Origin: Clostridiales bacterium
Lineage (GTDB): Bacteria; Bacillota; Clostridia; Christensenellales; Borkfalkiaceae
Direction of reading: 5' to 3'
Assembly: GCA_022781715.1 (NCBI GenBank)
Contig: JALETB010000022.1
Location: 1 to 57,361 of the forward strand
DNA: 57,361 nucleotides
This document shows, piece by piece, positions 28,584 through 33,559 of this stretch. Numbering within the stretch: position 1 is the first letter of the stretch; each line of letters begins with the position of its first letter. A model generated the notes under the pieces. It was not told where the DNA came from and did not search any database. It saw only the letters and a program-made list of their open reading frames with translations. The translations under genes were made by a program, and so were the position numbers.

Positions 28584-29813
28584 TTGAGTAAATATTACGC
28601 CGTTAAGGGTAACGGAGAAAAACACCTTTTCACCGACTGGGACGCCTGCAAGGACTTCACCGCAGGCAAAAAAGGTTATAAATTCAAGAGTTTTTCAACG
28701 AAAGAGGAGGCGGAATTCTATCTCGAAGATAAGGATTACGCCGAAAACGCCGTGGCGGAAGATTTGAAAAACGGTTACGCCGTTGCTTACACGGACGGGA
28801 GTTTCGAAGAGTCTGCGGGTGTGTATTCTTTCGGTGCGCTCGTTTTTTCACCGGACGGCACCAAGGCTTCTTTCTGCGACAGCGGCAAAAATCCCGATTT
28901 CATCTCTTCGCGGAACGTTGCGGGCGAAGTTCTCGGCGTTATCGAATCGGTGAAGTGGGCGTTTTTGAACGGCTGCGATAAGTTAAAAATATATCACGAC
29001 TACGAAGGGTTGTCTGCCTGGGCGACGGGGCTTTGGCAGGCGAAAAGCGCGGTGTCGCTTTATTACGTCGAGCGGCTGAAAAAATATTCGGGCGCGGTGA
29101 AAATCACGTTCGAAAAAGTAAAAGGACACAGCAACAACAGTTATAACGAAGCGGTGGACAAACTCGCAAAAGCCGCCCTTTTCGACGGGAAGCGAGAGGT
29201 CGTTTCGGGGATAGGCTGCAAAGTAAGCGGCGTGGGCGACTACGAGGCTTTGTGCGAATATATTTATAAGCAGGTCAAAGGCGTAAAACCCGAACTCGGC
29301 GACGATTATTGCAAGTTTGAAAACAGAGGTAAAAAACTTGCCGTTTATCGAAAGCCCGGCTGCTTGTCGGTTTGCGGCGATAACGGATTGCTGTATCTCA
29401 CCGCTGCGGGTTATTTTTATCGATCATGTACAAAAAACGGCGTTAATCGACTTATAGAACGGTTTTTTGATGTTGAAACAAACGGAGAATTCGGTTCGGG
29501 AGCGGACGTTACGGAGTTTCTCGCAAAAAACGTCCGCACGCAGAATTACGCGCCGTATATCGTTTTCGCGCTTATCGATACGGAAATGAGAATAAGCGGA
29601 GTCCTCGCCTCAAAGGGTTTCACGGGCGAGAAGATTTCCCGTGCGTTCGTTAAAAAGGATGGCGAATTCAAAGTTATTCTTCCGTTCGGCGGCGCGGAAA
29701 AAATCGAAGAGAGTTATGCGTTCTTTTATAATTATCGGACAAAACTCGACGATCTGATTTTTTCGCAAAAGGAATGTCTTGATTTTTGCGCGGAAGCGAA
29801 AAAATATTATTAA
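28584..29813 (+). CDS. Ribonuclease H (N-terminal RNase H1 hybrid-binding domain + RNase H) with additional C-terminal domain
   Basis: KYYAVKGNGEKHLFTDWDACKDFTAGKKGYKFKSFSTKEEAEFYL (hybrid-binding), AYTDGSFEE, GHSNNSYNEAVDKLAKAA; about 200 extra aa at the C-terminus. TTG start. Confidence 0.85.
   Translation: MSKYYAVKGNGEKHLFTDWDACKDFTAGKKGYKFKSFSTKEEAEFYLEDKDYAENAVAEDLKNGYAVAYTDGSFEESAGVYSFGALVFSPDGTKASFCDSGKNPDFISSRNVAGEVLGVIESVKWAFLNGCDKLKIYHDYEGLSAWATGLWQAKSAVSLYYVERLKKYSGAVKITFEKVKGHSNNSYNEAVDKLAKAALFDGKREVVSGIGCKVSGVGDYEALCEYIYKQVKGVKPELGDDYCKFENRGKKLAVYRKPGCLSVCGDNGLLYLTAAGYFYRSCTKNGVNRLIERFFDVETNGEFGSGADVTEFLAKNVRTQNYAPYIVFALIDTEMRISGVLASKGFTGEKISRAFVKKDGEFKVILPFGGAEKIEESYAFFYNYRTKLDDLIFSQKECLDFCAEAKKYY
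29443..29457 (-). repeat. 15-mer CTATAAGTCGATTAA, copy C (inside the RNase H CDS)
   Basis: + strand TTAATCGACTTATAG. Confidence 0.8.
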
Positions 29814-29815
29814 TG

Positions 29816-29915
29816 CGCGGAAGCGAAAAATACTGATGCGTGAAGTAAAAAGTATCAACACGCGGAAGCGAAAAATACTGATGCGTGAAGTAAAAAGTAT
29901 CAACACGCGGAAGCC
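29816..29915. repeat. 45-bp tandem repeat (2 perfect copies + partial) derived from the preceding CDS 3' end
   Basis: CGCGGAAGCGAAAAATACTGATGCGTGAAGTAAAAAGTATCAACA at 29816-29860 and 29861-29905; GCGCGGAAGCGAAAAAATATTATTAA is the CDS terminus. Confidence 0.95.
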
Positions 29916-29977
29916 TTCAGAAAATAATTACGAAAATACTTTAATTCTCCGATATCGGGGAAAAGGAATGAAATACG

Positions 29978-31030
29978 ATGGATAACGAAATAATTTCGCT
30001 TATCGATTCCGTCAAACAGCGGACGGGAATAAGCGTAAGGGTATATCTCGAAAACGGCGACGACAGTTATTCGCCGGTCGCGGGCGAGATGATCGAGCGC
30101 GCCGACGGAAAGGTGGACGGCATTAAAGACGTTGCCGAAAAAGGAAAAACTTATTTCAAGTTTCGCCACAAAGCGGACGAATACGTTGGGTATGTTAATT
30201 CCGAAAACGGCAACGGCGAAAGTATTGCCGGGGTTATTTCGGTCATGCTCGAAAACATCGGCGGCAAAGAGTTTTCAACAACCAAAAAGGAGTCGCTCAA
30301 AAACGTTCTTCTCGGCGAGTGTAACGCTTTGCAGGCTCAGAAGTTTGTCCGGAAGTTCGGTATTCCCGATATGCCTTGTTGCGTTTACGTCGTTTATTCG
30401 CAGGGCGGTTCCATCGACGACGTTATCGACTTTCTCGAAAATTTCAAGTCCAACACCCGCGATCTCGTCGTTGAGACCGACGAAATTTCCTGCGCTTACG
30501 TCAGATTTCAGGACGGCTCATCGCAGGAGAACGACTTCCAGTCGCTCACCGATTACGCCTATCTTATGGCGCAGAGCGTTGAGGAGGAGTTGGGCATAAA
30601 GGTTAAAATCGGCGTCGGCGGCACGTCCGGTTCTTTTTCGGACAGCGCGGTTTCGTATAAGCAGGCGATGATCGCCGTGAGAATGAGCGGCTTGTTCGAA
30701 ATAAAAACCGTCGTCGCGACGTATAAAGATTACGTTTTTATAAAAATGCTTGAGGATTTGCCAAAGTATAAACTGGAAGAGTTTCTGAACGTTTTGTCCG
30801 AACCGGAAACGAAGAGCGTGTTTGCCGACCCCGAAATGCTCGAAACGGCTTCGGAGTTTCTCAAAGCAAACCTGAACGTGTCCGAGGCTTCGCGCAATCT
30901 CTATATGCACCGGAACACTTTGATGTACAGGCTCGACAAAATCGAAAAGTCCACGGGACTCGATATCCGCAAGTTTCAGGACGCGATGACGTTCCGCCTT
31001 ATGACCATATTATATAAACTTCTTGGTTGA
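29978..31030 (+). CDS. PucR/CdaR-type transcriptional regulator
   Basis: C-terminal HTH NLNVSEASRNLYMHRNTLMYRLDKIEKSTGLDIRKFQDAMTFRLM. Confidence 0.85.
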   Translation: MDNEIISLIDSVKQRTGISVRVYLENGDDSYSPVAGEMIERADGKVDGIKDVAEKGKTYFKFRHKADEYVGYVNSENGNGESIAGVISVMLENIGGKEFSTTKKESLKNVLLGECNALQAQKFVRKFGIPDMPCCVYVVYSQGGSIDDVIDFLENFKSNTRDLVVETDEISCAYVRFQDGSSQENDFQSLTDYAYLMAQSVEEELGIKVKIGVGGTSGSFSDSAVSYKQAMIAVRMSGLFEIKTVVATYKDYVFIKMLEDLPKYKLEEFLNVLSEPETKSVFADPEMLETASEFLKANLNVSEASRNLYMHRNTLMYRLDKIEKSTGLDIRKFQDAMTFRLMTILYKLLG

Positions 31031-31124: not shown

Positions 31125-32474
31125 ATGAAAGACGAAAAAAAGGTTACAGAAGAAAATAAACCGAATAAATCCGCTAAAATATTCAAAAGAATTCTCATCG
31201 TTGTAATAAGCGCGATATGCCTTATCGGTTCGTTCTTTGCGGGGTTCGTCCTGCGCGACGTGAGCGACCCGGATATGGCTTCGCTTAAGTTTATCGTCGA
31301 AACGTATAAAAAATATTACCTCGAAGAATCCGACGATTTTGTTTCGATTATGGGCAACAGCATAATCGACAGATATTCGGAGTATATGACGAAAGAAGAG
31401 TACGAAGCGGTCGTCAAGGGTTCGGCAGGGAGAAGAAAGGGCATAGGTATCTCGTACGATAAAACCACGCTCAGAATTTCGTCGGTCAACGGCAATTCGC
31501 CCGCCCAGAAAGCGGGAATCAAAGAGGGCGACGTTATCAGGGCTGTGAAAAAACCGGGTGAAGAGAGTTTCACTGAAGTCGGCAATTCCGACGAACTTTC
31601 CGCCGTTTTTTCGGCGATATCGGACGACGAGGAGTTTTCTCTTAAACTCGATTCCTCGGGTGAGGAAAAAATCGTTACGGTTGCCCGCGCCGATTATCAG
31701 GAGGCTTACGTTTTTTATAAGGACAACTCAGGCGATTATCGATTTCAGGGTGAAAGCGGTAAGGATATGGCTCTTACCTCTTGCTTTGGCGGCTTGACGG
31801 AACTGGACGAAAAAACGGCATATATCAGATATTCGTCGTTCAACGGCAGGGGAGGTTCGGATGAAAAAGGCTCGTCGGCGTGGCAGATGAAAACTGCGCT
31901 CGCAAAGTTCAAGGCGGACGGAAGGAGCAAACTTATTCTCGATCTCAGAAGCAACGGCGGCGGATATATGGATATTTTAGAGAACGTCGCTTCGCACTTC
32001 ATCGGCGCGAAAAACGGCACGAAAAATCTTATTTCCAAGGCGGTTTATAAGGACGGGAGCGAGGACAGATTCGTTTCGTCTTCGGTCGATTACGCCGATT
32101 ACGGCTTTGAGAAGATCGTCATACTCGCCAATTCGGGAACGGCTTCCGCTTCTGAGGCTCTGATCGGAGCGATACTCGATTACGACGCGGAAAAGCGCGT
32201 GAGCGTTGTTTTGTCCGCAACCGAAATAAACGGCGGCTACGTTTACAGGTCTTACGGGAAGGGGATTATGCAGACGACTTTCCGCAACCCTGTTTTAGGC
32301 GATGCGATAAAACTCACCACCGCAAAAATTTATTGGCCGGTTTCGGGTGTGAGCATTCACGGCGTGGGTGTGGCGAAAAGTTCTTTGCCTGCTTACGCGG
32401 ACAGAATATACGAGCCTGCCGTCGATAAAACCGTCGATTACGAACTGAAAGAAGCGGTTGCCTTGCTCAGATAA
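31125..32474 (+). CDS. S41 family C-terminal processing peptidase (PDZ domain, CtpA-like)
   Basis: N-terminal TM, PDZ region GIGISYDKTTLRISSVNGNSPAQKAGIKEGDVI, LILDLRSNGGGYM, ANSGTASASEALIGAILDY. Confidence 0.9.
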   Translation: MKDEKKVTEENKPNKSAKIFKRILIVVISAICLIGSFFAGFVLRDVSDPDMASLKFIVETYKKYYLEESDDFVSIMGNSIIDRYSEYMTKEEYEAVVKGSAGRRKGIGISYDKTTLRISSVNGNSPAQKAGIKEGDVIRAVKKPGEESFTEVGNSDELSAVFSAISDDEEFSLKLDSSGEEKIVTVARADYQEAYVFYKDNSGDYRFQGESGKDMALTSCFGGLTELDEKTAYIRYSSFNGRGGSDEKGSSAWQMKTALAKFKADGRSKLILDLRSNGGGYMDILENVASHFIGAKNGTKNLISKAVYKDGSEDRFVSSSVDYADYGFEKIVILANSGTASASEALIGAILDYDAEKRVSVVLSATEINGGYVYRSYGKGIMQTTFRNPVLGDAIKLTTAKIYWPVSGVSIHGVGVAKSSLPAYADRIYEPAVDKTVDYELKEAVALLR

Positions 32475-32483
32475 ACATCACGC

Positions 32484-32525
32484 AAAATAAAAGCGATTTC
32501 GTCGCCGTTCCGGCAATGAAATCGC
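32484..32525 (-). terminator. Terminator of the minus-strand ncRNA (possibly bidirectional with the S41 gene)
   Basis: On - strand GCGATTTC...GAAATCGC then TTTTATTTT. Confidence 0.8.
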
Positions 32526-32738
32526 GGTTGTTTAAATTGTCTGCTTGCGCCGTACGCGAAGAAAAATCAACCCGTTTTCTAAAAACAGGTGGGTGTCTTG
32601 TCGAATAAATCCGTTTTTCCGTCGATATAGGCTCGGTTAACCGCAGCCGCGGGCATAACGTATTATTCAGAACGTTCAGGCTCCCTTATTTGATTTGTGG
32701 ATCTAATTAACTTCCGTTTCGAACGCCGCAGATTTTCT
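32485..32738 (-). ncRNA. Structured small RNA, candidate 6S RNA (ssrS-like)
   Basis: About 250-nt non-coding - strand unit with own promoter and terminator; closing-stem TCTGCGGCGTTCG.../...GGCGCAAGCAGA, central AGGGAGCCTGAAC..., hairpins GGCTGCGGTTAACCGAGCC and ACCCACCTGTTTTTAGAAAACGGGTT. Confidence 0.6.
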
Positions 32739-32744
32739 ACTATC

Positions 32745-32774
32745 ATTATATCATAATTTAAAAAATATATGCAA
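32745..32774 (-). promoter_or_regulatory. Promoter of the minus-strand ncRNA
   Basis: On - strand TTGCAT - 18 nt - TATAAT. Confidence 0.7.
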
Positions 32775-32791
32775 ACGTTTGGAGAATAAAA

Positions 32792-33559
32792 ATGAAACTT
32801 ACCGTTCTCGGGAAATACGGTCCCTACCCGGCAGTCGGCGGCGCGACGAGCGGCTATCTGTTGGAAACCGAAAAAGCGTCGTTCGTTCTCGATATGGGTT
32901 CGGGCGTTTTTTCGCGGCTCGAGGGCAAAATCGCGCCTGAAAAAGTCGATTGTATCATAATTTCGCATTTTCACGCCGACCATTGCGCCGATTTGCCTAT
33001 TTTGGGCTACTATCTTCAACGGCTCGACAAGTCGGGGAAGATTAACGGAAAAATAAAGGTGTTCTGCCCGAAGTCCGACTGCGAAATCTGTTCGTCGATT
33101 TCCCGTTCGAAGTATTTCGACGTGACGTTTGTCGAGGAAAAGGAGTATGAATTCCGCGGGGTGAAACTCCGGTTTTTTAAAACGAATCATCCCGAAACGT
33201 GTTATGGCGTGAACATAACGGAAACAACGAATCAATCGGTTGCGACGGACAAAAACGGCATAACGGGCGGCGAAATGAGTTTTTCTTACACGGGCGATAC
33301 CAACGTCTGTCCCGCGGCGGAAGAACTTTTCAAACGCGCGAAAGTCGTCCTTGCAGACGGCGGACTTTTAGAGCGCGATCGCAGTGAATCATCGCCGCAT
33401 TTAAGCGTTGAAAAGTGCGTCGAGTACAGCAATAAGTGGGGCAATAAGTTGATTATCTCGCATATTTGCCCGTCATACGATAGTGAAGAAATTATTAAAT
33501 GCGCAGGAAGAAAAGGGGAATGGACGATAGCGGAAGAGGGGAAGTCTTACGATTTTTAA
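32792..33559 (+). CDS. MBL-fold metallohydrolase (RNase Z/YhfI-like)
   Basis: SHFHADHCADLP, SYTGDTNVCP. Confidence 0.85.
   Translation: MKLTVLGKYGPYPAVGGATSGYLLETEKASFVLDMGSGVFSRLEGKIAPEKVDCIIISHFHADHCADLPILGYYLQRLDKSGKINGKIKVFCPKSDCEICSSISRSKYFDVTFVEEKEYEFRGVKLRFFKTNHPETCYGVNITETTNQSVATDKNGITGGEMSFSYTGDTNVCPAAEELFKRAKVVLADGGLLERDRSESSPHLSVEKCVEYSNKWGNKLIISHICPSYDSEEIIKCAGRKGEWTIAEEGKSYDF

Follow-up and report, generated by a model that had tools for sequence, protein, structure and literature searches.

The window, i.e., the whole 57,361-nucleotide stretch of DNA that was analysed, holds at positions 32737–32534 of the minus strand what is, judging from its sequence, very probably (about 97%) the single 6S RNA (SsrS-type) gene of the genome. 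Membership of this locus in the 6S family is nearly certain. The original prediction had named a candidate 6S RNA here, and the proposal is supported by RF00013 (6S RNA) being the best-matching Rfam family, by homologs that score over the cut-off of that family, by covariation among relatives, and by recovery of the locus with a model from which it had been left out.

When 551 nt were compared with all Rfam families using cmscan, RF00013 was the best match, extending over the full model (positions 1–187 of 187, corresponding to the 6S RNA body at 32534–32737, the mature ends of which are predicted) with 33.5 bits and an E-value of 3.8e-5. No family scored better, and no other family was found at the locus beyond Ysr201 (E 1.6), a chance match. 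The curated gathering cut-off of RF00013 is 46.4 bits, and a cmscan of the whole window at the gathering score reported nothing. Thus, the gene was overlooked by routine annotation because its sequence has drifted to a score under the Rfam cut-off. A search of the organism's entire genome with RF00013 also gave no match. Since cmscan and R1 (a covariance model described below) do detect the locus, this was put down to a loose pre-filter.

A DNA search of 100 relatives gave matches within the same genus, and five of the first six of these exceed the gathering score of RF00013 (59.8, 57.8, 55.5, 53.4 and 50.6 bits). Homologs from other genera of the family are also over the cut-off, with up to 60.9 bits, and several direct homologs fall just under it. 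The direct homologs at 47.8–60.9 bits are tied to the window by covariance model R2, which was made from 11 same-genus sequences, leaving the window out. R2 recovers positions 32733–32538 of the minus strand with 133.8 bits (E 5.3e-30), the next match in the window having 10.6 bits. At the sequence level, the alignment of the window with its homologs is obvious by eye, in the blocks CTGCGGYGTTCG, TAATT..TCCACAA, ATAAGGGAGC, CACCCACCTG..CGGGTTGATTT and ACGGCRC. A missing 6S gene is thereby filled in for a lineage in which scores fall on both sides of the Rfam cut-off. Because several direct homologs lie just under that cut-off, calls of 6S absence in this lineage would be false, and a clade model such as R1 or R2 would correct them.

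The RNA is predicted to form a rod. The closing stem is made of a 5′ strand at 32720–32732 and a 3′ strand at 32540–32552 (both minus strand), pairing CTGCGGCGTTCG with CGGCGC-AA-GCAG; its cells in the alignment of 30 sequences are 99.4% paired, and covariation in the same alignment supports the 3′ strand. Next is the central bubble, the 5′ strand of which (32686–32704, minus) holds the motif UCCAC at 32701–32697, and the 3′ strand of which carries a small hairpin, ACCTGTTTTTAGAAAACGGGT (ACCTG..CGGGT; 32570–32590, minus), which is 100% paired in the 30 sequences. The internal (apical) stem occupies 32591–32685 (minus, both strands); it opens with GGGAGC, which pairs across the bubble to ACACCC, and its helices 7–11 are 84–100% paired with many compensatory changes. 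At its tip is the apical hairpin GGCTGCGGTTAACCGAGCC (32630–32648, minus), found both by folding and by covariation.

Among 30 relatives, 95.0% of the cells at the 6S pairs hold standard pairs, and compensatory changes occur at 37 of the 50 pairs, in an alignment that was fitted to the covariance model. Cells changed on both sides number 240 in these 30 sequences, compared with 62 in shuffles and 24–55 in slid controls. An alignment of seven sequences, made by sequence alone, agrees: 20 pairs have double changes, compared with 7.7 in shuffles. The rod closed near both ends, with internal hairpins, that had been proposed from the single sequence is thus borne out by covariation as closing stem, bubble and apical stem. 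The folding check suggested at the same time turned out otherwise: the body folds at -50.6 kcal/mol (z -0.86), with 41 of 200 shuffles as good, a stability within the normal range for its composition. Single-sequence folding energy was accordingly dropped as evidence for 6S, being not significant. As the stability of the body is unexceptional, a single-sequence fold could not have settled the matter; it is the covariation that shows the 6S fold.

The gene is a self-contained minus-strand unit with genes on the plus strand all around it, as seen from the list of open reading frames (ORFs) and a domain search. On one side is an S41 peptidase gene (31125–32474, plus), convergent with 6S; on the other is a gene of the metallo-beta-lactamase (MBL) fold (32792–33559, plus; PF12706), divergent from it, beyond which lie ComEC, another ORF and diadenylate cyclase. 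Such a unit, placed between an S41 protease and an MBL gene, with a promoter TTGCAT-18-TATAAT and a strong terminator, was what the original prediction described, and each of the elements it named was found in its place in the sequence and the ORF list. The -35 element TTGCAT is at 32769–32774 and the -10 element TATAAT at 32745–32750 (both minus strand), separated by a spacer of 18 nt; a TG one base ahead of the latter makes it an extended -10, and transcription probably starts near 32738. This promoter scores under the threshold of the promoter scan because its -35 element fits at only three of six positions. An identical TTGCAT-18-TATAAT is present ahead of 6S in other genera (L045, L049), and a promoter directly before the 6S RNA is found in the window and in most other genera. 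The intrinsic terminator (32484–32525, minus) has an 8-bp stem with an inner hairpin, then TTTTATTTT; its stem, at -20.1 kcal/mol (z -5.1), is matched in stability by none of 200 shuffles.

In most relatives, MBL homologs (31–46% identical) are also divergently upstream of 6S; thus, the promoter side of the gene is conserved synteny. The downstream side differs. In several relatives, there is a tRNA-Glu(CTC) gene (in L002, L003, L004, L006 and others) or another tRNA gene behind 6S, whereas there are no tRNA genes at all in the window, where the convergent S41 gene, which is not a 6S neighbour in relatives, occupies that side instead.

Covariance model R1, which includes the window sequence, finds one copy in the organism's own genome (1.67 Mb), with 169.7 bits, the next match having 9.6 bits. 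It has matches in 101 of 151 genomes (E ≤ 0.1), with one match each in 100 of these 101; the exception (G077) has three, the third of which is weak. Thus, 6S is conserved across related species, as a rule as one gene per genome. The genomes without a match are not evidence of 6S absence, because they include incomplete assemblies and more distant members of the order, and because the search filters were stricter. The genome also encodes RpoD (404.6 bits, over its cut-off).

The low Rfam score invites the reading that the window holds a decaying or pseudogenised, non-working copy in which constraint has been lost. Indeed, its RF00013 score is the lowest among the closest relatives, and pairing is lost at a few places in one of seven sequences (e.g., columns 69/166, 71/164 and 72/163 of alignment A1). 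Against this, the copy is the only one in its genome; its closing stem, GGGAGC, UCCAC and 3′-bubble hairpin are all intact; changes specific to the window often keep the pairing, as in C-G to U-A at 18/219 and 174/184 of A1; and the promoter and terminator are complete. We regard decay as very improbable.

The same sub-threshold score could also be expected of a different structured small RNA that merely resembles 6S, but no other family scores at the locus beyond the chance match already mentioned, while homologs exceed the gathering score of 6S, the covariation backs the 6S fold, and R2 recovers the locus; the chance of this being so is minute. Ms1, an RNA of Actinobacteria, binds core polymerase and not the holoenzyme, and no Ms1-type family was among the Rfam matches at the locus. 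It is described as structurally related to 6S (PMC9130861). Scarcely any weight can be given either to a short protein gene or a mere inverted-repeat intergenic region: a minus-strand, TTG-initiated ORF (32663–33235) does overlap 6S mechanically, but most of it runs antisense within the MBL gene and it takes in only part of the RNA, and the conserved signal is one of pair-wise compensation.

By its established mechanism, the rod of the widespread 6S RNA mimics an open promoter for the housekeeping sigma factor, thereby occupying RNA polymerase; when NTPs are plentiful, the polymerase copies a short product RNA (pRNA) from the 6S bubble, upon which the RNA refolds and the enzyme is freed. By analogy, expression, polymerase binding, pRNA start and release can be outlined for the RNA of the window. 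It would be transcribed from its own minus-strand promoter, end at the intrinsic terminator, and presumably be trimmed to about 200 nt, folding as a rod with closing stem, open central bubble and apical stem. By virtue of its family membership, it would, as a mimic of an open promoter, bind sigma-A RNA polymerase, and pRNA synthesis, here probably from UCCAC, would refold it and release the polymerase. UCCAC, in the unpaired 5′ strand of the bubble, is conserved in 29, 30, 30, 27 and 30 of 30 sequences (U, C, C, A and C, respectively) and corresponds to about nt 38–42 of the RNA, counted from the likely start at 32738. It is read as the candidate start region of the pRNA template because the pRNA of B. 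subtilis 6S-1 begins at nt 40 (PMC8876501). The predicted pRNAs, of 8–15 nt, would have as their first base a G opposite a C of UCCAC and continue as GGAUCUAAUU or GUGGAUCUAAUU. A specific candidate motif for the pRNA start thus emerges from the alignment of the lineage.

The RNA resembles the B. subtilis 6S-1-like form of RF00013 in its length of about 200 nt, its rod-like fold (closing stem, central bubble, apical stem), the conserved bubble sequence near nt 40, and its own promoter and terminator; it differs in scoring under the Rfam cut-off. It also shares the short hairpin on the 3′ side of the bubble, which is typical of B. subtilis 6S-1 and not of E. coli 6S, and which in 6S-1 is already formed in the free RNA (PMC8876501). 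The loop of this hairpin is three bases longer in the window than in most sister species.

In most same-genus sister species, the promoter is further upstream, near the MBL gene, and is separated from 6S by a leader of some 15–840 nt. Between promoter and body, sister species carry a structured unit of 101 nt, often in tandem, with a period of about 126–153 nt. It is clearest in L038 (1207–1972, minus), L041 (640–1500, plus), L042 (1696–2045, minus) and L043 (1118–1500, plus), with a divergent copy in L046 (1166–1500, plus). The unit folds as a long hairpin flanked by conserved sequence (AAGGCTC ... AGAAACG), and 18 of its 32 pairs show compensatory changes; an Rfam search with it gave only chance matches to unrelated families. 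R3, a model for this unit, has matches in 34 of 101 genomes, often at least 40 per genome (67 in G003), and has none in the window or its own genome (G000). The copies are dispersed in G003 and other relatives (L065–L121), several being at contig ends. At about half of the loci sampled, the 3′ end lies within about 20 nt of the TAA stop of a convergent gene, and most of the others are inner copies of arrays. Many copies end at -3 to +21 nt from such a stop, which places the reverse complement of the unit directly behind stop codons. In four 6S leaders, 6S begins directly at this 3′ boundary of the unit (GTnTATAAgnctTTAA). A Y1 transposase was considered as the mover and rejected, since its presence does not track the number of repeats.

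This repeat is a more unusual lead than the 6S gene itself, and may be mobile as DNA, functional as RNA, or both. We tentatively suggest, as a possibility with somewhat less than even odds, that in this genus an undescribed 101-nt structured element, often in tandem, inserts into the 6S leader. Sister species would then make 6S from a long, repeat-containing precursor that needs processing, while the window keeps promoter and 6S uninterrupted; the element could be either a functional RNA or a new kind of dispersed element that settles behind stop codons.

Another structured-looking stretch, unlike the 101-nt unit, is held in the 534-nt gap between MBL and 6S in G005 (L037, 966–1501, plus; GGAACGGTGCGTGACTGTACGGAGGC...GGCGTTCCTATTTTT). 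It has promoter-like sequence ahead, T-runs behind, and GTTCGTTTCGGACGT occurring twice, and is possibly a separate small RNA. In the window, short direct repeats (NARKRKILMREVKSINTRKRKILMREVKSINTRK in one frame) are present in the ORF list at 29779–29985, right behind an RNase H gene.
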